64,000 bases of DNA from Pseudomonas sp. Q1-7. Its GTDB lineage: Bacteria; Pseudomonadota; Gammaproteobacteria; Pseudomonadales; Pseudomonadaceae. The notes under the pieces are model-generated. The model was not told the origin of the DNA. It saw only the letters and a program-made list of their open reading frames with translations, and did not search any database. The stretch covers positions 2,992,501-3,056,500 of the forward strand of contig NZ_CP116304.1 in assembly GCF_028010285.1 (NCBI RefSeq), given 5' to 3'. Of this stretch, positions 17,580 through 33,636 are shown piece by piece; positions within the stretch are counted from its first letter, which is position 1; each line of letters opens with the position of its first letter. A program made the position numbers and the translations under genes.

Positions 17580-18929
17580 TCAGGTCGCGTCGGCGTGGCT
17601 GACCAGGCCCTTGATGATCACCGCCGTGGTGGCGATGGCGGCGGGCACCACCAGCGCCGTCAGCACCTGTTCGAAGTTCCAGCCCAGGCCCAGCAAGGTC
17701 GCGCCGATCCAGGCGCCGAGGATGGCGCCGAAACGGCCGATGCCGAGCATCCAGGACACTCCGGTGGCGCGGCCCAGGGTCGGGTAGAAACGCGCCGCCA
17801 GGGACGGCATGGCCGATTGCGCGCCGTTGACGCACATACCGGCCAGCAGCACCAGGGTGGCCAGCAGCGTCACCTCGCCCAGGCTCTGGCCCACGCAGTA
17901 GGCGAACACGCCGGCCAGCAGGTAGAAAATGCCGATCACCTTGTGCGGGTTGAAGCGGTCCATCGCCCAGCCCACGCCGACGGCGCTGAGCACGCCGCCG
18001 AACTGGAACAGCGCGCCGATGAAGGCCGCCTGCTCCAGGCTGGCGCCGCTGTCGCGCATCAGGGTCGGCAGCCAGCTGGTGAGCAGATAGACGATCACCA
18101 GCCCCATGAAGTAGGTGAGCCAGAGCAGCAGGGTGCCGGCGCTGTAGGTGCCGGAGAAGATCACCCGGAAAACACTGCCCCCCTGGGCGGTCTTCTGCTC
18201 CGGCACGCTGAATCCGCTGGCCACCGCCACCTCGGCCGGCGCGATGGGCGACAGCGCCTTGCGCACCTTGTCCGCGCCCTTGTTGCGCACCACCAGGAAG
18301 CGGGCGGATTCCGGCAGCCAGAGCAGCAGCACCACGGCAAGCGCCAGGGGCAGCAGACCGCCGAGCAACAGCAGACTGTGCCAGCCATAGGCCGGGATCA
18401 GCGCGGCGGAGACGAAGCCGCCGGAAGCCATGCCGAGGTTGAAGCCGCAGAACATGCTGGTCACCAGCAGCGACTTGAGGCGTTCCGGGGTGTACTCGGA
18501 AAGCAGCGTGGTGGCGTTCGGCATCGCGGCGCCCAGACCGAGACCGGTAAGGAAGCGCAGCACCAGCAGTTGTTCGAGGTTGGCGCTGAATGCGGAGACC
18601 AGACTGAACAGCCCGAACAGGAATACCGCCGTCACCAGGACGACCTTGCGCCCGAAGCGGTCAGCGATGGGCCCGGAGCCGAGGGCGCCGAAGACCATGC
18701 CGATCAGCGCGGCGCTCATCACCGGGCCGAGGCTGGCGCGGTCGATGCCCCAGTCCTGGGTCAGCGCCGGGGCGATGAAACCCATGGCGGCAGTATCCAG
18801 GCCGTCGAGGAAGACAATGAGGAAACACAGCAGCACGATGCGCCATTGGTAGGCGGACAGTGGCTGGGCGTTGATGAAGGATTGGACATCGAGACTGCCC
18901 GTGGCGGGCAGATGGGCTGGGCTGGTCAT
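17580..18929 (-). CDS. pcaK: 4-Hydroxybenzoate/protocatechuate transporter PcaK (MFS, AAHS family)
   Basis: A 449-residue 12-helix transporter. It shows the PcaK hallmark FLDGLDTAAMGFIAPAL in helix 1, GPIADRFGRK in loop 2-3, and LGAAMPNATTLLSEYTPER. Similarity to known Pseudomonas PcaK is very strong throughout, including the SHADAT C-terminus. PcaK imports 4-hydroxybenzoate and protocatechuate and also acts in chemotaxis to them. ATG 18929 has AGGAA ahead. The upstream region carries PcaR-like GTTCGAT sites. Confidence 0.92.
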   Translation of the reverse strand: MTSPAHLPATGSLDVQSFINAQPLSAYQWRIVLLCFLIVFLDGLDTAAMGFIAPALTQDWGIDRASLGPVMSAALIGMVFGALGSGPIADRFGRKVVLVTAVFLFGLFSLVSAFSANLEQLLVLRFLTGLGLGAAMPNATTLLSEYTPERLKSLLVTSMFCGFNLGMASGGFVSAALIPAYGWHSLLLLGGLLPLALAVVLLLWLPESARFLVVRNKGADKVRKALSPIAPAEVAVASGFSVPEQKTAQGGSVFRVIFSGTYSAGTLLLWLTYFMGLVIVYLLTSWLPTLMRDSGASLEQAAFIGALFQFGGVLSAVGVGWAMDRFNPHKVIGIFYLLAGVFAYCVGQSLGEVTLLATLVLLAGMCVNGAQSAMPSLAARFYPTLGRATGVSWMLGIGRFGAILGAWIGATLLGLGWNFEQVLTALVVPAAIATTAVIIKGLVSHADAT

Positions 18930-19130
18930 GCAAGAATTCCTGCTAATGGTCTTCCTCCGCATGCGGGCCGTTCTCTGCGGCCTCTGACGGGGAAGTCCCG
19001 GGCTGGACAGGAATGAGGCGTCGCCCGGCGCGACAGGCCATTGCCGGGGAAGAGCGCTCATTGTTGTTATGAGCCGCGCCGGCTGGTGGCGCGACTGTGC
19101 AGACCTTACGAAGAGCCGACAGGCGGTTCA

Positions 19131-19164
19131 ATTCGATAATCGGCAAATCGTTCGATAGTCGAAC
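19131..19164 (-). promoter_or_regulatory. PcaR-like operator upstream of pcaK
   Basis: ATTCGATAATCGG at 19131-19143 and the palindrome GTTCGATAGTCGAAC at 19150-19164 match the GTTCGATAATCG type repeats bound by PcaR/PcaU proteins. They lie about 200 bp before the pcaK ATG. Confidence 0.65.
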
Positions 19165-19178
19165 ATTGTTTGCCCGCC

Positions 19179-19877
19179 CTACCCCGGCCTCGGCCCCAGC
19201 ACCAGGGCGAAGCGCCCCGCCCCTTCGTCCACCCGCAGGTCTCGCCAGGCCAGCCCCAGCGCGGCGAACGGCGCCGAGAGTTCCTCCGGGTCGAACGCCC
19301 GCTGGCGGAAGCGAAAGCGCCGGGGCGGCTCGTCGCCCGCCTCGGGCCACAGGTCCAACGTCACCTCGAACCGGCAGGGTTCGCCGGGGCAAGGCCGGTT
19401 GCGGGCCTCGCGCCACCAGCGGCGGCCGCCCAGCAGCAACGCCTGACGGCCGTTGAACTGCGGACTGACCTGGATGGACCGGCGATGGTAGGCATCCAGA
19501 TAAAGGCAGCGCGTGCCATCCGGGCGCAGCGCGGTGACCAGGGAGCGCGCGGCACTGGCCAGGATGCCGTCATCCAGCAGGTAGGCGCTCACCGCGCCGG
19601 CCATGAGAATGCTGTCGAAGCACTGGCGGAACGGCAGCCGGCAGACGTCGGCCTGCACCACGGGAATGCCGGGGAAACGGCGCGCCGCTTCGCGTACCGC
19701 CCCGGGGTCGATGTCCAGCAGCAGCGCGGGCGCCTGCGGCAACTGCGCGATCAGCCCGAAGTAGCTGCCGATCCACAGCGTGTCGCCGAGCCGCGCGGGC
19801 AGCCCGCCGAGGTCGACGAAACGCTGCGAGTGGGCCGCATAGGCGTCGTAGAGCAGGCCCTCAGGGCTGGACGACAT
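19179..19877 (-). CDS. Putative class I SAM-dependent methyltransferase
   Basis: A 232-residue protein with a methyltransferase-like core: a degenerate glycine motif at LWIGSYFGLI (residues 35-44), an acidic strand end ALLLDIDPG (51-59), ADVCRLPF (76-83), and SILMAGAVSAYLLD near motif IV. The first motif lacks the usual GxGxG, so activity is not certain. It is the last gene of a six-gene operon and overlaps the dehydrogenase by 17 bases. In the inferred pathway it could methylate the product, but this is inference. Confidence 0.6.
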   Translation of the reverse strand: MSSSPEGLLYDAYAAHSQRFVDLGGLPARLGDTLWIGSYFGLIAQLPQAPALLLDIDPGAVREAARRFPGIPVVQADVCRLPFRQCFDSILMAGAVSAYLLDDGILASAARSLVTALRPDGTRCLYLDAYHRRSIQVSPQFNGRQALLLGGRRWWREARNRPCPGEPCRFEVTLDLWPEAGDEPPRRFRFRQRAFDPEELSAPFAALGLAWRDLRVDEGAGRFALVLGPRPG

Positions 19878-20823
19878 TGCGGTGGCGGCCGCTGCGCAGG
19901 ATATCCAGCAGCACGCCGGCCGCCTTGCGCCGCAGCTCCGGCAGCGCGGCCTCGGAGTAGAACGCCACGTGGGGCGAGAGGATCACCTCCTCACGGTTGC
20001 AGAAGGCCTCGGGAATCGCTTCCCGTTCGTTCTCGTAGACGTCCAGGCCGACGCCCCGCAGGTGCCCCGCCTCCACCGCGGCGGCCAGGGCGGTGCCGTC
20101 GATCAGCGGGCCACGCGCGGTATTCACCAGGTACTTGCCGTGCAGGCGTTGCAGTTCCCGCGCACCGATGAGATGGCGGGTTTCGTCGTTCAATGGCGTG
20201 TGCAGGCTGACCAGGTCGGAATCGCGCAGCAGGTCATCGAGGTTCTCGCAGCGCTGTACGTTCAGCGATTTTTCGGTACCGCTGCTGATGTAGGGGTCAT
20301 AGAAGCTGACCTGGCAACCGAAGGCCTGGAAGCGCCGTGCCACGGCCATGCCGATGCGGCCGAAACCCACCAGGCCGACGCGCAGTTGCGACAGGCGCGG
20401 CAGCGTGCCCACCTGGCGCCAGTCCCAGCCACCGCCGCTGACCACCGCATGACCGCGCGGCACCCGGCGCAGCAGGCCGAGGGCCAGGGCCAGGGTGTGA
20501 TCAGCCACTTCCTCGGTGCCGTAGTCCGGCACGTTGGCCACCTGCACGCCGTGGCTGACGGCCGCCAGCAGGTCGATGTTGTCGAAGCCCACCGCCGCCC
20601 GCACCACGGCCCGGCACCTGGGCACGTCCTGGAAGAAGGCGCGGTTCAGCGGCACCAGGTGCCAACTGATGAAACCGTCGCAGGCGTACGCCTCGGCGGG
20701 CAGCTCACAGGTGTCCGACACCTGGTAAAGCGTGACTTCGGCGGCGTCGCCGAACACGCTGCGTTCGATGTCGGGATCGGTGACGTAGCAGTTGTGGCGG
20801 GAATCGATGATGCCGATTTTCAT
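19861..20823 (-). CDS. D-2-hydroxyacid dehydrogenase (NAD-dependent, CtBP-like)
   Basis: A 320-residue D-isomer-specific 2-hydroxyacid dehydrogenase. The Rossmann motif GFGRIG is at residues 153-158. Catalytic Arg237 (NTARG), Glu264 (DVYENE) and His285 (SPHVAF) are all present. It interconverts 2-oxoacids and D-2-hydroxyacids. Start and stop overlap both neighbours (4 bases with azlD, 17 with the methyltransferase), so it belongs to the operon. It may remove or use a 2-oxoacid made by the aminotransferase. Confidence 0.85.
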   Translation of the reverse strand: MKIGIIDSRHNCYVTDPDIERSVFGDAAEVTLYQVSDTCELPAEAYACDGFISWHLVPLNRAFFQDVPRCRAVVRAAVGFDNIDLLAAVSHGVQVANVPDYGTEEVADHTLALALGLLRRVPRGHAVVSGGGWDWRQVGTLPRLSQLRVGLVGFGRIGMAVARRFQAFGCQVSFYDPYISSGTEKSLNVQRCENLDDLLRDSDLVSLHTPLNDETRHLIGARELQRLHGKYLVNTARGPLIDGTALAAAVEAGHLRGVGLDVYENEREAIPEAFCNREEVILSPHVAFYSEAALPELRRKAAGVLLDILRSGRHRNVVQP

Positions 20824-21131
20824 ACGAAAGCTCCTGTCAGCCAGCGGATCAGCGCGCAGCAGGCCGTGCCCGCGGCCACGCCGACCAGTACGTTGCGAAA
20901 GCGCCAGACCAGCGCGAGGGTCAACAGCGCGCTGATCCAGATGGAGGGATCGCCCTCCACCAGCCGCGGGCTGATAAGGGCGGCGAGGATGGCCGCCGGC
21001 AGGTTCTGCAGGAAGCGCTGGCCGAAGCCGTCAAGGGCTTCGCCGCTGACCGGCAGCAGCAGCGGCAGCGTGCGGGTCAGCCAGGTGGCCAGGGCCATGC
21101 CGAGGATGGCGAGGAGTTCGAGCGACGTCAT
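20820..21131 (-). CDS. azlD: AzlD-family branched-chain amino-acid exporter small subunit
   Basis: A 103-residue membrane protein with about four helices. The AzlD motif WLTRTLPLLLPVSG is at residues 17-30, and LQNLPAAILAALISP follows. AzlC and AzlD together export branched-chain or modified amino acids. It overlaps azlC by ATGA and the dehydrogenase by ATGA, so it is translationally coupled on both sides. Confidence 0.85.
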   Translation of the reverse strand: MTSLELLAILGMALATWLTRTLPLLLPVSGEALDGFGQRFLQNLPAAILAALISPRLVEGDPSIWISALLTLALVWRFRNVLVGVAAGTACCALIRWLTGAFV

Positions 21132-21835
21132 GCGGCACCTCGTGACAGTTGCGGGAGAGGCAGTGCGGCGACCACGGCGCTGGCGACCACGGCGGCGATC
21201 ACCACCGAGGCGTCACCCAGGCCAGGCAGGTGCATCACCGCCGTGGCGATGGCGCCGGACAGCAGCCAGGTGCCGAAGTCCATCAGGTGGCGCCAGAGCA
21301 GCACCATCAGCGACAGGAACATCGCAATGAAGGTGAAATCCAGGCCGAAGGCGTCCGGGTCGGGGATGCGGCTGCCCACCAGGGTGCCGATCACCGATCC
21401 GCCGACCCAGCCGGCGTAGATCAGCAGGCCGGCCTGGACGAAGTAGCGCAGCGAGGGCTGGGCCTGCTTGAAGCGGTGTTCGGCCAGGGCCCAGGTTTCG
21501 TCGATCAGCAGCAGGGCGAAGGACGGCAGCAGGCGGCTGCGCGATTCCCGCAGGAAGGCGCGGCGCAGCGACAGGCTCATCAGCAGGTGGCGCAGGTTCA
21601 CCAGCAAGGTGGTGAGGACGATGCCCACCACCGGCAGGTGCCCCGGCTGCCACTGTTCGATGGCGACGAACTGCGAGGCACCGGCGAACACCAGCAGGCT
21701 CATCAGCGCGGTGGCGAAGGTGGTCAGCCCGGCCTTGCTGGCCAGCACACCGAACACCAGGCCGAACATGAAGCCGCTGACGATGATGGGTGCGGCGTCG
21801 GTGAAGGCATCGCGGAAGGTCAGGACAGGTTTCAT
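21128..21835 (-). CDS. azlC: AzlC-family amino-acid exporter large subunit
   Basis: A 235-residue membrane protein. It has the AzlC features SGFMFGLVFGVLASKAGL, VFAGASQFVAIEQW and LTTLLVNLRHLLMSLSLR. It partners AzlD in amino-acid efflux (known for 4-azaleucine resistance and branched-chain export). ATG 21835 overlaps the aminotransferase stop. Its place beside an aminomutase and an aminotransferase suggests export of a modified amino acid made by the operon. Confidence 0.88.
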   Translation of the reverse strand: MKPVLTFRDAFTDAAPIIVSGFMFGLVFGVLASKAGLTTFATALMSLLVFAGASQFVAIEQWQPGHLPVVGIVLTTLLVNLRHLLMSLSLRRAFLRESRSRLLPSFALLLIDETWALAEHRFKQAQPSLRYFVQAGLLIYAGWVGGSVIGTLVGSRIPDPDAFGLDFTFIAMFLSLMVLLWRHLMDFGTWLLSGAIATAVMHLPGLGDASVVIAAVVASAVVAALPLPQLSRGAA

Positions 21836-22932
21836 GGCAATACCTCGCGCAGTCGTTCGAGAAAGCCCGAGGTGATGCTGGCCTGGCACAGGGTGACGCG
21901 GATCAGGTGCTGGAACGCCCTGTGCTGCGGGCGATGCACGGCAATTCCCGCCTCCAGCAGGCGGGCCTGCACGCGTTCGGCCGACTCGTTGGTGGGCAGC
22001 TCGAACGAGACGAAGTTGGTGCCCGACTGCAACGGGCGCTGGCCGAGGGTGCGCAAGTGCTCGGAAAAGCGCAGGCGCAGTTCGGCATTGCGCTCGATGA
22101 TCGCCGGGCCGTTATTGGCATCGTCCAGGGCCAGCAGCGCGGCGTACTGGACCAGCCCGCCGAGGGCGTAGTGCACCTTGCTCCGTTCCAGGATATCGAG
22201 CAGCGGCCGCTCGGCCAGCGCATAGCCGATGCGCAGTCCGGCCAGGCCATGGGACTTGGACATCGAGCGGATGCGCACGCAACGGGGCAACGGCCTGGCG
22301 CTGCCTTCGCCAAGGGCCGGACAGAAGTCCAGGTAGGCCTCGTCCAGCAGCAGCAGGCAGCCTTCCGGCAATTGCTCGATGAAACGTTGCACCTCGTCGT
22401 GGGCGCTCCAGGAACCGGTGGGGTTGTCTGGATTGGCCAGGTACACCAGCCGTGCCTGGGCGCTCCGCGCGCGCTCGGCGAGGAGCACGAGGTCCACCCG
22501 CGGCCCTTCGATGCCATAGCGGTACGGCACTTCCACCAGGTGGCAGGCGTTGGCACGGGCGAAATAGCCGAAGGTCGGGTAGGTGCCGGCGCTGCACACC
22601 ACGGTATCGCCGGGACGACACAGGGCCTGGACGCAGAGACCGATCACCGCGTCGGCACCGGCGTCCAGGCTCAGGTGCTCCGGGTCGAAGCCGTAGTACT
22701 GGGCCAGGGCCTGGCGCAACTCCCAGGCCCCCGGATCACCGTACAGGCGCGCGCGCTGGCAGAAGGCATCGCCGAAGGTTTCGCGCAGGCGGGTCAGGGG
22801 TGCGTCGAGACTCTCGTTGCCCCCCAGGCGCAACTGCACGCGCTTGCCGGTACGCCGCTCCAGTGCGGCCACGCCCGGGAACGGATTGGGGTTGTCCTTG
22901 CCTGGCGCAAAGGAAGAACCGCTCGACTGCAT
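21832..22932 (-). CDS. HisC-like PLP-dependent aminotransferase (fold type I)
   Basis: A 366-residue class I/II aminotransferase of the histidinol-phosphate aminotransferase type. NPDNPTG is at residues 168-174 and DEAYLDF begins at 197. The PLP-binding Lys226 lies in SMSKSHGLAGLRIGY. AGGAGGAG in front of ATG 22932 is an unusually strong ribosome-binding site. No his genes are nearby, so a role in histidine synthesis is unlikely. With the upstream radical SAM aminomutase homologue it probably handles an unusual amino acid. Confidence 0.85.
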   Translation of the reverse strand: MQSSGSSFAPGKDNPNPFPGVAALERRTGKRVQLRLGGNESLDAPLTRLRETFGDAFCQRARLYGDPGAWELRQALAQYYGFDPEHLSLDAGADAVIGLCVQALCRPGDTVVCSAGTYPTFGYFARANACHLVEVPYRYGIEGPRVDLVLLAERARSAQARLVYLANPDNPTGSWSAHDEVQRFIEQLPEGCLLLLDEAYLDFCPALGEGSARPLPRCVRIRSMSKSHGLAGLRIGYALAERPLLDILERSKVHYALGGLVQYAALLALDDANNGPAIIERNAELRLRFSEHLRTLGQRPLQSGTNFVSFELPTNESAERVQARLLEAGIAVHRPQHRAFQHLIRVTLCQASITSGFLERLREVLP

Positions 22933-22952
22933 GGTGGTCTCCTCCTGCGGGC

Positions 22953-24137
22953 TCATTCCGGGAACGTGCACGGCTGGCCCTTCCAGTTGATGAAGTGGAG
23001 AAACTCTCCGTGGGGCCCCTGGTCCAGCATCGGGCGCTGGCCGACCAGGTCCAGCGGCACGGTGAACTTGCCGGTCTTGTGCGGCAGTACGTACTCCGGC
23101 ACGGCGATGTTCGACAGCCGGCGCTTCATCCTCGCCACCAGGGCCACGGCTGCGCTGATGTCGGTGCGGTAGTTCGCCGAACCCGGCGAGAACGGCATGA
23201 AGTGGTAGAGGTAATGCGGCTGCACGCCCATCCGGTAGAGGCTCAGGCACAGCTCGGAAAGGGTCTCGTAGTCGTCGTTGATGCCGCGCAGCAGCGGGAT
23301 GTTGGCAAACAGGATCGGGCAGGCGCCCTGCAGGCGCCTCACCGCCATGCGGAAGTCGCGGGTCAGTTCCCGTGGATGGGCGACGTGCAGGCCGACGGTG
23401 TTGACCTCGTGGCGCGCCAGCACTTCCACCAGTTCGCCGGTGATGCGATAGGGGTTGAAGGTCAGCGCGCGGGTGTGGATGCGGATGATCAGCTCCGGGC
23501 GCAGTCCCCGCAGGTCGCCGAGGTAACGGTCGAGGTGGGCGTCGGAATGCATGAGCGGTTCACCGCCGCTGAGGATCACTTCGTCCAGCTCGCGGTGGCT
23601 GCGGATGTAGGCCAGGGTGTCGAGCCAGTCCTGGCGACGCAGGCTGCCCTTGTCGGTGTGTTTCTCCAGGGTGCGCAGCGCTTCGTAGCAGAACTGGCAG
23701 TAGGCGTGGCAGGCATTGGCCATGCGCAGGATCACGCGGTTGTCGTACTTGTGCTGGCAGATCGGCGTGACCATCTCGTCCGGCAGCTCCCAGTTCTCCG
23801 ACTCTCCGTCGTAGGCGAGCGCGACGGCCGCTTCCGTGGCCTGCCAGTCGGGCACCAGTTGGCGCCAGATGGGGTCGCTGGCCAGCGGGCGATCGGCCTC
23901 GTCCCGGTGGATCAGGCTGGCCGTGTAGGGCGTGATGCCCAGCTTGCGTTCGGCCAGGTGGTGGCGAACGCGCTCGGCCAGGTCGCCGTTGGCCAGGCCG
24001 GGAAATGATTGCAGCAGGTCATCCAGGCTGGTCAGCGCGTTGCGCTGTTGCCAACGCCAGTCGGACCAGCGGTCGGTGCCATCGACGACTTCGACGGGGA
24101 TCGTTCCAGACAGGGCTTGGGTAGCGGAAAGCGTCAT
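22953..24137 (-). CDS. KamA-family radical SAM aminomutase homologue
   Basis: A 394-residue member of the lysine 2,3-aminomutase family. The radical SAM cluster ligands are Cys143, Cys147 and Cys150 (CHAYCQFC). SGGEPL at 190-195 is the SAM-binding stretch. Lys357 (TGKFTVPL) aligns with the PLP lysine of KamA. The two aspartates that bind the lysine side-chain amine in KamA align with non-acidic residues (FMPFS near 313-317 and VLPHK near 350-354), so the substrate is probably not lysine. It is the first gene of the six-gene operon, 20 bp before the aminotransferase, and divergent from a MocR regulator. Confidence 0.82.
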   Translation of the reverse strand: MTLSATQALSGTIPVEVVDGTDRWSDWRWQQRNALTSLDDLLQSFPGLANGDLAERVRHHLAERKLGITPYTASLIHRDEADRPLASDPIWRQLVPDWQATEAAVALAYDGESENWELPDEMVTPICQHKYDNRVILRMANACHAYCQFCYEALRTLEKHTDKGSLRRQDWLDTLAYIRSHRELDEVILSGGEPLMHSDAHLDRYLGDLRGLRPELIIRIHTRALTFNPYRITGELVEVLARHEVNTVGLHVAHPRELTRDFRMAVRRLQGACPILFANIPLLRGINDDYETLSELCLSLYRMGVQPHYLYHFMPFSPGSANYRTDISAAVALVARMKRRLSNIAVPEYVLPHKTGKFTVPLDLVGQRPMLDQGPHGEFLHFINWKGQPCTFPE

Positions 24138-24226
24138 CCTGGAGCACTCCTGAACAAGGTGGATTGGGCCCGTTCAGGATGTGGGAACGTCGCTTCACTT
24201 GAAAAAACAGCGGGCTATCGACAACA

Positions 24227-24257
24227 CTCACTGTTATGCATTTTGTCTAACAGTTGA
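24227..24257. promoter_or_regulatory. Inverted repeat in the MocR/aminomutase divergent promoter
   Basis: CTCACTGTTA, 11 bases, TAACAGTTGAG: the inner 7-bp arms ACTGTTA (24230-24236) and TAACAGT (24248-24254) are perfect inverted copies. It lies 20 bp upstream of the MocR start and is the best operator candidate for the divergent pair. Confidence 0.5.
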
Positions 24258-24276
24258 GATAAGGACTCGGGAAGCG

Positions 24277-25668
24277 ATGGATATCGTCCTGGATGCCGAC
24301 GATGAGGTTCCACTGATCGAACAGGTCTTCCGCTGTATCAGCGATGCCATCCGCGCCGGCACGCTCAAGCCCGGTCAACAATTGCCCTCCATTCGCCGCC
24401 TGGCCAGCCAGGAGCGGTTGACCTTCCACATTGTCGTCGGTGCCTACGAACGCCTGCAGAGCTACGGGCTGATCAGCGCCCAGCCCGGACGCGGCTATTT
24501 CGTCTGCGCCATGCCGAACCTGCCCAGCGTGCAGCCCCAGCCTGCCGCGCCGGTGCCCGAGACGAGCCGGCTGGCCGCATTCTGGAACATGTTCCATGGC
24601 GACGACCGCTGCATGAAGGTCGGCTGCGGCTGGCTGCCCCCGGCCTGGCGCGATACCAAGGAGCTGGCCCGGCATGTGCGCCGCACCGCCAATTTCGGCC
24701 ACAGTTCGCTGGTGGAATATGGCGATCCCGGCGGCTACCTGCCGCTGCGCCAGCACCTGGTGCGCCACTTGGGCAAGCGCCTGCAGGTCGCTCTGTCGCC
24801 GTCCCAGTTGCTGACCACCCTGGGCGCCACCCAGGCGCTCGACCTGCTGATCCGCCACATCGTGCAACCGGGCGACCGTGTGCTGGTGGACGACCCCTGC
24901 AACAGCACCCTGGTGCAGTTGATCAAGATGCGCGGGGCGCAGGTGGTGGGCATTCCCCGGCGCCAGGACGGCCCCGACCTGCAGGCCTTCGAGGCGGCCG
25001 TCAGCCAGTCGCGTGTCCGCGCCTTCTTCATCAACACCCAGTTGCACAACCCTACCGGCACTTCGCTCAGTCCTCAGTGCGCGTTCCGCCTGCTGCAACT
25101 GGCCCACGCCCACGATGTGGTGCTGGTGGAGGACGACGTCTACGGCGACTTCTGCCAGGAAGGCAGCCGCCTGGTGTCGCTCGACGGGCTGCGCAAGGTG
25201 ATCTACATCGGCAGCTTCTCCAAGACCCTGTCGGCCAACCTGCGCGTCGGCTACCTGCTGGCGCCGGCGCCCCTGGTGGCGGAACTGGCCGACCTGAAGC
25301 TGCTGACCAGCGTGTCGGTGCCGATCTTCTTCGAACGCTTCCTCAGCGCCATGCTCGCCGACGGCACCTACGCGCGCCACCTCGACGCGGTGCGGCGCCG
25401 CCTGCAAAGCGCCCAGGCGGACGTGCAGGACAGTTTCCAGCGTTGGGGCTGGGAGATGTTCCACCGTCCTGCCGAAGGCATGTTCCTCTGGGTGCGCCAC
25501 CCCGCGATCCAGAACCAGGCACCGTTCATCGAGCGCGCCTTCGCCCAGGACATCCTCCTCGCCCCGGGGGCGCTGTTCAGCGCCAGCGGCAGCGACAGCC
25601 CCTGGTTCCGCATCAATGTCGGGCACCTCGACCCGGCCAAGGCCGAAGGACTGTTCGCCGGGGTCTGA
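24277..25668 (+). CDS. MocR-type regulator (GntR helix-turn-helix fused to aminotransferase domain)
   Basis: A 463-residue fusion protein. The N-terminal GntR winged helix (residues 10-75: QQLPSIRRLASQERLTF, AYERLQSYGLI) is joined to a fold type I aminotransferase domain with LHNPTGT (256-262), VEDDVYGDF and PLP Lys316 (SFSKTLSANLRVGY). MocR proteins sense PLP or a PLP-bound amino acid. Its divergent position suggests control of the aminomutase operon. ATG 24277 puts the helix-turn-helix at the usual place; the earlier in-frame start would add unrelated residues across the operator. Confidence 0.88.
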   Translation: MDIVLDADDEVPLIEQVFRCISDAIRAGTLKPGQQLPSIRRLASQERLTFHIVVGAYERLQSYGLISAQPGRGYFVCAMPNLPSVQPQPAAPVPETSRLAAFWNMFHGDDRCMKVGCGWLPPAWRDTKELARHVRRTANFGHSSLVEYGDPGGYLPLRQHLVRHLGKRLQVALSPSQLLTTLGATQALDLLIRHIVQPGDRVLVDDPCNSTLVQLIKMRGAQVVGIPRRQDGPDLQAFEAAVSQSRVRAFFINTQLHNPTGTSLSPQCAFRLLQLAHAHDVVLVEDDVYGDFCQEGSRLVSLDGLRKVIYIGSFSKTLSANLRVGYLLAPAPLVAELADLKLLTSVSVPIFFERFLSAMLADGTYARHLDAVRRRLQSAQADVQDSFQRWGWEMFHRPAEGMFLWVRHPAIQNQAPFIERAFAQDILLAPGALFSASGSDSPWFRINVGHLDPAKAEGLFAGV

Positions 25669-25683: not shown

Positions 25684-26526
25684 TCAGTGGAACAGCCGCG
25701 CGCTGAGTTCCTTGCTGGCTTCCAGCAAGGCCGGCAGGAAGCGGGTTTCCAGCTCCTGGCGGCTGACCCGGCCGACATGGGTGCCGACGTTGAGCGCCGC
25801 GAGCACCTGTCCCGCCGAATCGCGCACCGGCACGGCCACCGAACGCAGGCCCATTTCCAGCTCCTGGTCGATGATCACCCAGCCCTGGCGGCGGATTTCC
25901 GCGACGCTGGCGCGCAGGCCTTCCACGGTATGCACGGTGCGGCTGGTCTTCACTTGCAGCTCGGCGTGGTCGAGGTAATCGTCCAGCGCGGCGTCATCCA
26001 GGGCGGCGAGCAGGATGCGGCCCATGGAGGTGCAATAGGCCGGCAGCCGACTGCCGACGCTGAGGTCCACCGAAATCAGGCGGTTGGGGGTGGCCGAGCG
26101 GGCGATGTAGAGGATTTCGTCGCCTTCCAGGGTCGCCATGGAACAGGCCTCGTGGAGCTGGTCGCTGAGGCGGTCGAGGATCGGCTGGGCCGTGACCGCC
26201 AGCGGCGTCGAGGACAGGTAGGCATGCCCCAGGGTGAGCACCTTGGGCAACAGCGAATAGGTGCGCCCGTCGGTGGTGACGTAACCCAGTTTCATCAGGG
26301 TGTGCAGGCAGCGGCGCACGGCGGCGCGGGGAATCTCGGTGCGGTGACTGATCTGGGCGATGGTCAGGTGGCGCTTGCGCTCCTGGAATGCGTGGATCAC
26401 CGCCAGGCCACGCGCCAGGGACGTCATGAAGTTGGGATCGCCGGTGAAGGCTTCGATGCGCTTGGCCGGCGAGGCAATGATGGGCGGAGCCAGCGGGAGC
26501 AAGGGGGCACGCAGTTCGTCGGTCAT
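25684..26526 (-). CDS. pcaR: IclR-family regulator PcaR
   Basis: A 280-residue IclR-type regulator. The stretch IEAFTGDPNFMTSLARGLAV and the winged helix TIAQISHRTEIPRAAVRRCL (about residues 59-78) are characteristic of PcaR/PcaU/PobR. The C-terminal domain binds beta-ketoadipate in PcaR, which then activates pca genes. ATG 26526 fits the family N-terminus. A 26-bp palindrome 42 bp upstream suggests autoregulation. pcaK, pcaI and the quinate genes in this window carry related sites. Confidence 0.93.
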   Translation of the reverse strand: MTDELRAPLLPLAPPIIASPAKRIEAFTGDPNFMTSLARGLAVIHAFQERKRHLTIAQISHRTEIPRAAVRRCLHTLMKLGYVTTDGRTYSLLPKVLTLGHAYLSSTPLAVTAQPILDRLSDQLHEACSMATLEGDEILYIARSATPNRLISVDLSVGSRLPAYCTSMGRILLAALDDAALDDYLDHAELQVKTSRTVHTVEGLRASVAEIRRQGWVIIDQELEMGLRSVAVPVRDSAGQVLAALNVGTHVGRVSRQELETRFLPALLEASKELSARLFH

Positions 26527-26568
26527 TGTTGTTGTCCTTGGCGGTTCAGGGGCACGGCGAATGCGGCC

Positions 26569-26594
26569 GATTATCGAACCCTGGTTCGATAATC
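26569..26594 (-). promoter_or_regulatory. Perfect 26-bp PcaR palindrome upstream of pcaR
   Basis: GATTATCGAACC, two bases, GGTTCGATAATC: every position of the arms pairs. It matches the GTTCGATAATC repeat known for PcaR and is the strongest member of a site family in this window. Position suggests autoregulation of pcaR. Confidence 0.85.
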
Positions 26595-26683
26595 GCAAAT
26601 GACCGTGTGCGTTCGACTCGTACTTTCGCCCGCCGCCTACGGCACGCCACCGTCCATTGCCAGCGCCCCGCTACGCCTTTGAA

Positions 26684-31725: not shown

Positions 31726-33636
31726 CTACAGCCTGGCCTTGGTGGGGGCTCCGCTGCGCGCCTTGGCCATGGCTGCCAGGCGTACGGCGACGTTGGCGGC
31801 GCCGTAGCCGCCGTAGCCGTTCCGGCGCTGCAGGATTTCGAAGAAGAAACGTCCCTCGAACGGCTCGGTATACACGTGGAACAGTTCGCCGCCCTGGGCG
31901 TCGCGGTCGTAGAGCACGTTGTAGTAGGCCAGTTCGCTAAGGAATTCGTCGTCGAAATCGAAGCGCGCCGCCAGGTCGTCGTAGTAGTTCAGCGGTATGT
32001 CCAGCAGCGGGACCCCGGCGTCCTTGGCCCGGCTGACCTCGCTGAAGATGTCGGCGCAGGAGAAGGCGATATGGTGGGCGCCCGAGCCGCGATAGCTGGA
32101 CAGTGCGTGGGAAATGGCGGTGTTGCGGTTCTCCGAGATGTTCAGCGGCAGGCGGATGCTGCTGCAGCGGCTGCGAATGGCACGGCTCTTCACCAGGCCA
32201 TAGGGGTCCGGCAGCACCACTTCGTCGTCGGCCTCGAAATCCAGCACGCTCTTGTAGAACAGCACCCAACTGTCGAGTCCGTCGGCCGGCAGCGCCAGGG
32301 CCATGTGGTCGATGCGTTCGAGCGCGCCGCTCTGACGCGCGTCCGGGTCGAGGACGAAATCGCTGTCATAGATGGTCTGGCCAGCCGGCGCCTGCTCCAC
32401 CAGGTAGATCAGGCTGCCATCCGGCGCGCGCACGGCGGGAATCTCGCGCTCGTTGGGCCCCACCAGGCCACGATAGGGCTGTCCCTTGAACTCGCGAGCA
32501 CGCTCCAGGGCACTGCCGCTGTCCCTGACCCGCAGGGCGGTGGCGCAGAGCGACGGGCCGTGGGCTTCGAAGTAGCCATGGGCGAAGGAATAGGGTTCGG
32601 CATTGAGCACGATGTTGATGTCGCCCTGGCGCAGCAGGCTGACAGCCTTGGAGCGGTGCTTGCCGGCGCGGGCGAACCCCAGGCGCTCCAGCCAACCGGC
32701 CAACGCGGCACCCAGGGCCTCGTCCACGGCGAATTCGAGGAATTCCACGCCGTCGTAGCGGCTGGCCGGCGGCGGTGCGAAAAGGACGTCCAGGTTGGCC
32801 GGCGGTGTCGGGTCCTTGGCCAGCAGCGTGCGGGTCTTCTCCTCCAGGTAGAGCAGCGAACGCAGGCCATCGGCGGCATTGCCGCGCGGCGGAGCGGCGC
32901 GGAAACCATCGTTGAAGATTTCCAGTGACAGCGGCCCCTGGTAGCCGCTGCGGATGATGGGCGCAAGGAAGCCTGGCAGGTCGAACTCGCCCTGGCCAGG
33001 GAAGCAGCGGAAGTGCCGGCTCCACTCCAGCACGTCCATGGCCAGCAGCGGCGCGTCGGCCATCTGCACGAAAAAGATCTTGTCGCCCGGGATGTCGGCA
33101 ATCCCGCTGGGGTCGCCCTTGATCGACAGCGTGTGGAAGCTGTCCAGCAGCACGCCGAGCGCCGGGTGGTCGGCCTGGCGAACCAGATTCCAGACCTGCT
33201 GCCAACTGTTCACATGGCGTCCCCAGGCCAGGGCTTCGTAGCCGATGCGCAGGTTGCGCGCGCCGGCGCGCTCGGCCAGCAGACGCAGGTCGTCGACCAG
33301 GATGTCCTCATCCGCCATGGCGTCGGCCTGGACGTTGCTGCACACCAGCACCAGGTCGGTGCCCAGTTCCTGCATCAGGTCGAACTTGCGCTCGGCGCGG
33401 TCGAGGTTCTTCTGCAGGCGGTCGCGGCGGCAGCCCTCGAAGTCGCGGAACGGCTGGAACAGGGTGATGGCGATCCCCAAGTCGGCGCACATCTGGCGGA
33501 TTTCCCGTGGGCTGCCGGCGTAGTACAGAAGGTCGTTCTCGAAGATCTCGACGCCGTCGAAGCCGGCTGCGGCGATGGCTTCGAGCTTTTCCGGCAGGGT
33601 ACCGCTCAGGGAGACGGTGGCAATGGAACGCTGCAT
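31726..33636 (-). CDS. quiC: 3-Dehydroshikimate dehydratase QuiC (fused to HPPD-like domain)
   Basis: A 636-residue two-domain protein. The N-terminal TIM barrel (residues 1-270) carries the metal ligands Glu134, Asp165, Gln191 and Glu239, the set known for Pseudomonas QuiC1. The C-terminal half (about 290-630) is a 4-hydroxyphenylpyruvate dioxygenase-like VOC module with HIAFSCADIF and a C-terminal EPFEGRFFFEILQR. The barrel turns 3-dehydroshikimate into protocatechuate; the role of the second domain is uncertain. It is divergent from the MFS transporter across a complex regulatory spacer. Confidence 0.93.
   Translation of the reverse strand: MQRSIATVSLSGTLPEKLEAIAAAGFDGVEIFENDLLYYAGSPREIRQMCADLGIAITLFQPFRDFEGCRRDRLQKNLDRAERKFDLMQELGTDLVLVCSNVQADAMADEDILVDDLRLLAERAGARNLRIGYEALAWGRHVNSWQQVWNLVRQADHPALGVLLDSFHTLSIKGDPSGIADIPGDKIFFVQMADAPLLAMDVLEWSRHFRCFPGQGEFDLPGFLAPIIRSGYQGPLSLEIFNDGFRAAPPRGNAADGLRSLLYLEEKTRTLLAKDPTPPANLDVLFAPPPASRYDGVEFLEFAVDEALGAALAGWLERLGFARAGKHRSKAVSLLRQGDINIVLNAEPYSFAHGYFEAHGPSLCATALRVRDSGSALERAREFKGQPYRGLVGPNEREIPAVRAPDGSLIYLVEQAPAGQTIYDSDFVLDPDARQSGALERIDHMALALPADGLDSWVLFYKSVLDFEADDEVVLPDPYGLVKSRAIRSRCSSIRLPLNISENRNTAISHALSSYRGSGAHHIAFSCADIFSEVSRAKDAGVPLLDIPLNYYDDLAARFDFDDEFLSELAYYNVLYDRDAQGGELFHVYTEPFEGRFFFEILQRRNGYGGYGAANVAVRLAAMAKARSGAPTKARL

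Follow-up and report, generated by a model that had tools for sequence, protein, structure and literature searches.

Probable synthesis and export of an unusual amino acid by a bacterial gene set of scattered occurrence with an unstudied kind of radical enzyme

The operon described here lies, together with a divergent gene for a MocR-type regulator, at positions 19179–25668 of a 64,000-nucleotide stretch of the genome of Pseudomonas sp. Q1-7 (NZ_CP116304.1); this whole stretch is the window of our analysis. It encodes a KamA-like radical S-adenosylmethionine (SAM) enzyme that is predicted to use pyridoxal 5'-phosphate (PLP; gene A), a HisC-like aminotransferase (B), a two-part AzlCD amino-acid exporter (C and D), a D-2-hydroxyacid dehydrogenase (E) and a methyltransferase (F). 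Going by the parts of the sources considered here, the nearest published system is the Pbo cluster of Pseudomonas syringae pv. phaseolicola, in which the lysine-aminomutase homologue pboF lies by ATP-grasp, isoleucine-4-hydroxylase-like and major facilitator superfamily (MFS) genes; the product of this cluster (pboF–pboI) is termed putative by its authors (PMC8473136). Other described systems resemble single components. The AzlCD exporter family has broad substrates, including azaleucine, histidine and asparagine, and takes uncharged amino acids (PMC10882977, in part). Human CtBP1 acts best on 2-keto-4-methylthiobutyrate, with Trp318 touching the sulfur of the substrate, and also takes many other 2-oxo acids, its physiological substrate being unknown according to the portion of the report considered (PMC6303947). 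An initial annotation of the locus knew of no described pathway with this content, and this agrees with a literature search of open-licence full texts, in which none of the matches listed describes the gene set in its title or the start of its abstract.

The gene set is scattered over distant bacterial lineages and probably serves to make and export an unusual amino acid by an unstudied kind of radical enzyme. More specifically, we consider it slightly more probable than its negation that this is a horizontally spread operon for the synthesis and export of a small, probably uncharged, non-proteinogenic amino acid. In the proposed pathway, A would generate a 5'-deoxyadenosyl radical and shift the α-amino group of a neutral amino acid of the methionine or leucine type to the β carbon, while B and E would interconvert the matching 2-oxo and D-2-hydroxy acids, thereby either feeding A with the α-amino acid or handling a partner piece. 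F may N-methylate, AzlCD would send the free amino acid out of the cell, and MocR could sense an aldimine of the pathway amino acid and switch the operon. The place of AzlCD is taken in sister clusters by an MFS pump together with a weakly ATP-grasp-like gene, as though a dipeptide carried the same piece out of the cell. We lean towards a methionine- or leucine-like substrate because of the SAM synthetase and methionine-salvage (Mtn) genes found in some clusters, the CtBP-like nature of E and an exporter family that accepts uncharged amino acids. Synthesis and export of an unusual amino acid, for example a β-amino acid, had also been the initial reading of the operon, which the analysis bears out in part. 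Its export half gains from the broad substrate range of the exporter family; for its other half, we infer from the fold of A, in which the substrate-contact places are altered, that the enzyme may form β-amino acids.

A (22953–24137, minus strand; 394 residues, PF04055 above gathering score) would represent a new subfamily of the lysine 2,3-aminomutase (KAM) fold. A structural alignment extends this fold, as solved in 2a5h, over 335 residues at 28% identity, and among the solved radical SAM structures listed, 2a5h is by a wide margin the best fit to A in fold and length. Residues were counted over the 78 family rows of an alignment of 81 rows, which comprises the query, 76 hand-picked members of at least 120 family proteins, the locus L011 and three outgroup loci. 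The CxxxCxxC radical SAM motif is intact throughout (C143, C147 and C150 in 78/78), R134 as the counterpart of KAM R116 is conserved, and a candidate PLP lysine, K357, is present in every row (78/78). The latter matches KAM K337, which we take to be the PLP lysine of 2a5h, only with a two-residue gap. In KAM, R134 presumably contacts the substrate carboxylate, and D293 and D330 are presumably the acidic contacts to the lysine side chain. Family members of A instead carry E152 at the place of R134 (78/78), M314 (76/78) followed by P315 (78/78) at that of D293, and P352 (76/78) at that of D330; H353 is likewise invariant (78/78). The predicted substrate-contact places hence differ from those of KAM, yet are fixed within the family.

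This divergence is mirrored by the curated KamA-type NCBIfam models listed, whose cut-offs A does not reach: it scores 188 bits with lysine 2,3-aminomutase (TIGR03820, cut-off 525.4), 179.4 with the KamA family (TIGR00238, cut-off 199.2), 175 with glutamate 2,3-aminomutase (TIGR04368, cut-off 650) and 176.8 with arginine 2,3-aminomutase (TIGR04468, cut-off 600). On these cut-offs and the altered contact places, assignment of A as a lysine, glutamate or arginine aminomutase was rejected, as was EpmB (161.1 bits, cut-off 369.3). Dickeya relatives of A also directed attention to the Vfm quorum-sensing cluster of that genus; this candidate was dismissed, as "aminomutase" and "radical SAM" occur 0 times in the main text of PMC9306890. 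In L068 (genome G138), a relative with 37% identity to A is found beside genes that by eye appear to be of nonribosomal peptide synthetase type and hydroxylase-like, possibly a further class of the radical SAM subfamily of A.

A scan of GTDB contigs with A yielded 27 loci, 21 of which carry A at an identity of at least 51% and form the basis of the following counts; L022–L027 (31–33% identity, without E or B) were left out, and L053–L056 were taken as the same places as L021, L018, L002 and L004 and not counted twice. E and B both lie near A in 20 of the 21 loci, with a largest gap of 3020 bases and L011 as the exception. Since these loci keep E and B within about 3 kb in four gene orders, the association is not due to chance; a mirror-tree correlation, whose permutations ignore shared ancestry, counts as weak evidence. 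The complete order MocR, A-B-C-D-E-F, for which the initial annotation had suggested a search, recurs in L002, L004, L018 and L021 and is thus conserved in relatives of the locus. Across the wider set, the conserved unit is A+E+B and not all six genes; MocR stands divergently beside A in 11/21 loci and F occurs in 5/21.

Four arrangements can be distinguished. The AzlCD type (window, L001–L005, L018 and L021) reads A-B-C-D-E(-F), with A-C-D-E-F-B in L005. The ligase type (L006–L010 and later L057) consists of A-E-B followed by a gene with weak likeness to ATP-grasp and by one for an MFS pump; in L057, one TGA interrupts the A gene, which points to a pseudogene or a sequencing error. Nine Pbo-like loci (L011, L058–L064 and L067) combine A (50–53% identical) with ATP-grasp, 2-oxoglutarate (2OG)-Fe oxygenase and MFS genes, the oxygenase of L011 scoring 112 bits against PF10014. 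In the fourth, actinomycete type, E precedes A, followed by a PF14518 oxidase, B and a SAM synthetase.

The actinomycete clusters offer a clue to the chemistry. Oxidase and SAM synthetase are present in all eight loci of the scan (L012–L017, L019 and L020), and gene clustering adds an alanine-racemase-like gene in 4/8 and a GCS2 ligase in 3/8. L065 likewise holds E, A, oxidase, B and SAM synthetase; a second, distant KamA-like gene (3702, minus strand; 32% identity) is located just past its SAM synthetase. The closest PDB relative of the clustered oxidase is HrmI (E 1.3e-17), presumably an amino-acid N-oxygenase of the hormaomycin pathway. The cluster SAM synthetases form a clade of their own: in 8/8 genomes searched, identity to the query is 59–100% for the A-locus copy and 45–47% for every other copy. 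Among the cluster proteins (L069–L076), GAGDSG replaces GAGDQG in 7/8 and P or A replaces the Glu of EGHPDK in 8/8, whereas both motifs are intact in all eight non-cluster enzymes (L077–L084). The cluster copy could have an altered substrate or confer self-resistance. Furthermore, an MtnA-MtnB fusion and an MtnD-like gene are collinear with the cluster in L012, and MtnA-MtnB, MtnD-like and MtnC-like genes are found immediately upstream of it in the genome of L017 (L049), the MtnC and MtnD names being assigned by reading the sequences. Methionine-salvage genes hence accompany the A-E-B cluster in two of seven actinomycete genomes, besides MtnA copies elsewhere. In the remaining five, no such match lies at the A locus; one of these genomes, G196, contains a 68% copy in another place.

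The distribution of A is sporadic. It was detected in 1/18 genomes of its own genus, i.e. the source genome itself, in 13/398 of its own family (E 1e-60) and in 4/398 of its own phylum (1e-90), each including the source, as well as in 3/394 genomes of the family of G199 (1e-60, G199 included) and 1/396 of the corresponding phylum (1e-90, the centre genome itself); in these family and phylum surveys, at most four first-look candidates were scored per genome. The tree of A places Burkholderia latens within the pseudomonad rows (98/98, seven rows). Both this placement and the spread of A fit horizontal transfer.

The regulator gene (24277–25668, plus strand) encodes a GntR DNA-binding domain (PF00392, 42.9 bits) fused to an aminotransferase-like domain (PF00155, 134.2 bits), both over the Pfam cut-off, and contains the lysine motif SFSKTL. 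MocR proteins sense PLP-type ligands. ATG 24277 is the more likely start, as it is preceded by AAGGA and, in the protein read from there, the match to the NCBIfam PdxR model sets in at residue 12; a start at the alternative GTG 24181 is less likely because the longer reading frame would cross an operator-like palindrome (24231–24253; CTGTTAG, 9 bases, ATAACAG on the minus strand) between MocR and A. The divergent MocR gene of the initial annotation is thereby borne out, with a shifted start and an operator-like site of its own. The core TGTTAG-N8..11-TAACAG occurs exactly once in the source genome, a single contig of 5.78 Mb, and its reversed control pattern 0 times. The site is exact in 10 of 12 MocR–A intergenic regions, window included; the two variants are those of L003 (1 mismatch) and L008 (2 mismatches, spacer 12), and a match with at most one mismatch arose in 1/600 mononucleotide shuffles. 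It is also exact in L057. No exact match was found in L011, L058–L065, the other eight actinomycete loci or L005, the last of which gave no MocR match either. What may be a third half-site (24202–24211; minus strand GCTGTTTTTT) resembles its counterparts in relatives as judged by eye. The common regulator and operator of the AzlCD and ligase types suggest a shared inducer and so, perhaps, the same core product.

The remaining genes, all on the minus strand, were assigned with Pfam at gathering scores like A and MocR, by which each of the family names proposed initially is confirmed, that of F narrowly. E (19861–20823; PF02826 171 bits, PF00389 also above cut-off) has CtBP1/2 as its closest solved chains (1.9e-53 for CtBP1, 2.7e-42 for the best chain other than CtBP) and retains the catalytic triad R237, E266 and H285 in 21/21 loci. 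B (21832–22932; 366 residues, PF00155 155.7 bits) is closest to PDB entry 4wbt and does not reach the hisC model TIGR01141 (197.7 bits, cut-off 276.55); K226 is its likely PLP lysine and, like D197 and Y200, is found in 21/21 loci. AzlC, the large exporter subunit (C, 21128–21835; PF03591 132 bits, cut-off 32.1), and AzlD, the small one (D, 20820–21131; PF05437 69.5 bits, cut-off 23.7), are encoded by adjacent overlapping genes, C remaining below the AzlC equivalog TIGR00346 (94.5 bits, cut-off 332.35). F (19179–19877) is a rare class-I methyltransferase that barely passes PF13649 (29.2 bits, cut-off 27) and PF08241 (22.5 bits, cut-off 21.2). A search of 5.8 billion proteins yielded no more than 8 homologues of F at 1e-5, and the folds closest to its model are those of CypM, DesVI and TylM1 (12–14% identity). 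CypM and TylM1 are N-methyltransferases by their entry titles, and since C-methyltransferases are likewise among the structural matches, N-methylation by F is a guess.

The gene layout was reproduced exactly, with 20 bases between A and B and overlaps of 4 (B/C), 4 (C/D), 4 (D/E) and 17 bases (E/F). This tight packing, a feature of the sequence, fits a single transcription unit. Four terminator-like matches were detected compared to 2.2 (standard deviation 1.5) in shuffles; all are on the plus strand, so that none terminates the minus-strand operon.

Operon and MocR gene sit between pcaK (17580–19061, minus strand; 845 bits, cut-off 770) and a pcaR/pcaU/pobR-family gene (25684–26598, minus strand; 336.5 bits, cut-off 284.75), inside a block for benzoate, 4-hydroxybenzoate and quinate catabolism. 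Neighbors on the pcaK side are benA, a benE-family transporter gene and an AndR-like AraC regulator gene (below cut-off), while the pcaR-family gene is accompanied by genes for a type II dehydroquinate dehydratase, a shikimate dehydrogenase and the 3-dehydroshikimate dehydratase QuiC (quiC, 31726–33636, minus strand; 1304 bits), which make up a quinate/shikimate utilisation set. Because pcaR and pcaK adjoin in Pseudomonas putida, the block of operon and MocR gene may have been inserted between them. At E ≤ 1e-40, neither PcaK nor PcaR finds a match in any of the 84 loci compared. With a guanine-plus-cytosine content of 0.678 against 0.654 and 0.660 in the flanks (window 0.658), composition barely sets the operon apart.

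Several observations weigh against synthesis and export of an unusual amino acid by this operon as proposed. A gapless alignment sets T359 rather than K357 opposite KAM K337, and with E152 replacing the presumed carboxylate-contact arginine, A could fail to hold a free α-amino acid in the usual way. Also, F288 of E (21/21 loci) occupies what is taken as the place of CtBP Trp318, the Trp of the AAWYSE stretch. The exporter pair is found in 7/21 loci, and F was not found in L001 and L003 despite the presence of C and D. A promoter resembling the sigma-70 type was not found in 18950–24400. For the gene following B in L006–L010, Pfam ATP-grasp_4 matches lie under the cut-off in two of the five proteins (0.056 in L007 and 0.0043 in L010), with no ATP-grasp match in L006, L008 and L009 (Pfam) or for L007 in NCBIfam; a firm assignment as ATP-grasp ligase was therefore dropped in favor of "weakly ATP-grasp-like". 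Finally, the nine Pbo-like loci show no match to E or B, so the substrate of A need not come from these enzymes, which may act before A, after it or on a partner piece.

Some of these features would suit a rather unlikely scenario, in which A is not an aminomutase of free amino acids; having Glu152 where KAM has the carboxylate-binding arginine, it would instead carry out other PLP-radical chemistry (fragmentation, elimination or rearrangement) on a different substrate, with E and B processing the product. The family-wide E152 and H353 (78/78) and M314 and P352 (76/78), the scores under every KamA-type NCBIfam cut-off listed, and the oxidase, racemase-like and SAM-synthetase partners in actinomycetes are compatible with such a role. 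It is countered by the match to 2a5h in fold and length, far above the other solved radical SAM structures listed, and by retention of R134 (KAM R116) and the cluster motif. Another view is that of an ordinary lysine or glutamate 2,3-aminomutase that provides β-lysine or β-glutamate as osmolyte or antibiotic piece. In its favor are the label "lysine 2,3-aminomutase" of many relatives in source records and the structural alignment with 2a5h at 28% identity. We regard this view as very improbable indeed, given scores of 188/525.4 (lysine), 175/650 (glutamate) and 176.8/600 bits (arginine) relative to the cut-offs and the loss of both acidic places that we take to contact lysine.

Alternatively, the operon might be catabolic or detoxifying: A would turn a soil β-amino acid into its α isomer, B would deaminate it and E reduce the oxo acid, while AzlCD expelled the surplus and MocR sensed the substrate. 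Its position within the aromatic-acid catabolism block would agree with this, as would the reversibility of aminomutases and the frequent control of catabolism by MocR proteins. Yet AzlCD belongs to an exporter family and not to importers, and the partner genes found elsewhere (MFS and weakly ATP-grasp-like ones in sister loci; HDO, GCS2 and SAM synthetase in actinomycetes) suggest building rather than breakdown, which makes catabolism improbable. Conceivably, although we offer this as a speculation in which we place little confidence, the proposed synthesis-and-export operon could be cast in a bolder form. A would then be the first member of a family of 2,3-aminomutases for neutral amino acids, with methionine or a close analogue as its substrate, and A+E+B would build a methionine-type β-amino acid. 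This would leave the cell free via AzlCD, in a dipeptide via ligase and MFS pump, or N-oxidized in actinomycetes, where the SAM synthetase (plus methionine-salvage genes in two genomes) would meet the SAM cost or provide self-protection. The pseudomonad MocR would sense the product, so that the exported amino acid doubles as a signal.

If synthesis and export of an unusual amino acid holds true, the family of A would add to the PLP radical SAM aminomutases a new branch whose pocket takes neutral substrates, and the gene set would define a new natural-product family of small amino acids in Pseudomonadota and Actinomycetota, with several finishing and export routes for the same piece. β-Amino acids are sought-after building blocks. 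Among soil bacteria, the compound itself could act as a toxin, an antimetabolite or a signal, and a MocR protein with a defined operator would report on the product of the operon.

Taken together, the locus touches on several known systems and departs from each of them. HrmI is the nearest PDB relative of the actinomycete oxidase, but belongs to another cluster than the A-E-B oxidase. CtBP1/2 of animals are the nearest solved relatives of E, which retains their triad, whereas E is bacterial, encoded in a biosynthetic-type operon and carries Phe where CtBP has the sulfur-contacting Trp. In common with AzlCD of Bacillus subtilis, both subunits are present and encoded by overlapping genes, while C falls below the AzlC equivalog cut-off and the pair resides in a biosynthetic-type operon beside MocR (PMC10882977, in part). 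The Pbo cluster shares a KamA homologue in a pseudomonad gene cluster, and the nine Pbo-like loci with A hold the same gene kinds, by which alone they were matched to those parts of its description considered (PMC8473136). These loci differ from the operon in being without E, B, AzlCD and any match to MocR or its operator; conversely, Pfam detects no ATP-grasp, 2OG-type oxygenase or MFS gene among the operon genes of the window, which places the operon outside the Pbo type. With KAM, finally, A has in common the fold over 335 residues, the CxxxCxxC motif and R134 (KAM R116), along with an invariant lysine that is a candidate for the PLP lysine given a two-residue gap, but it scores below the KamA-family cut-off and its family has replaced the residues at the places of KAM R134, D293 and D330.

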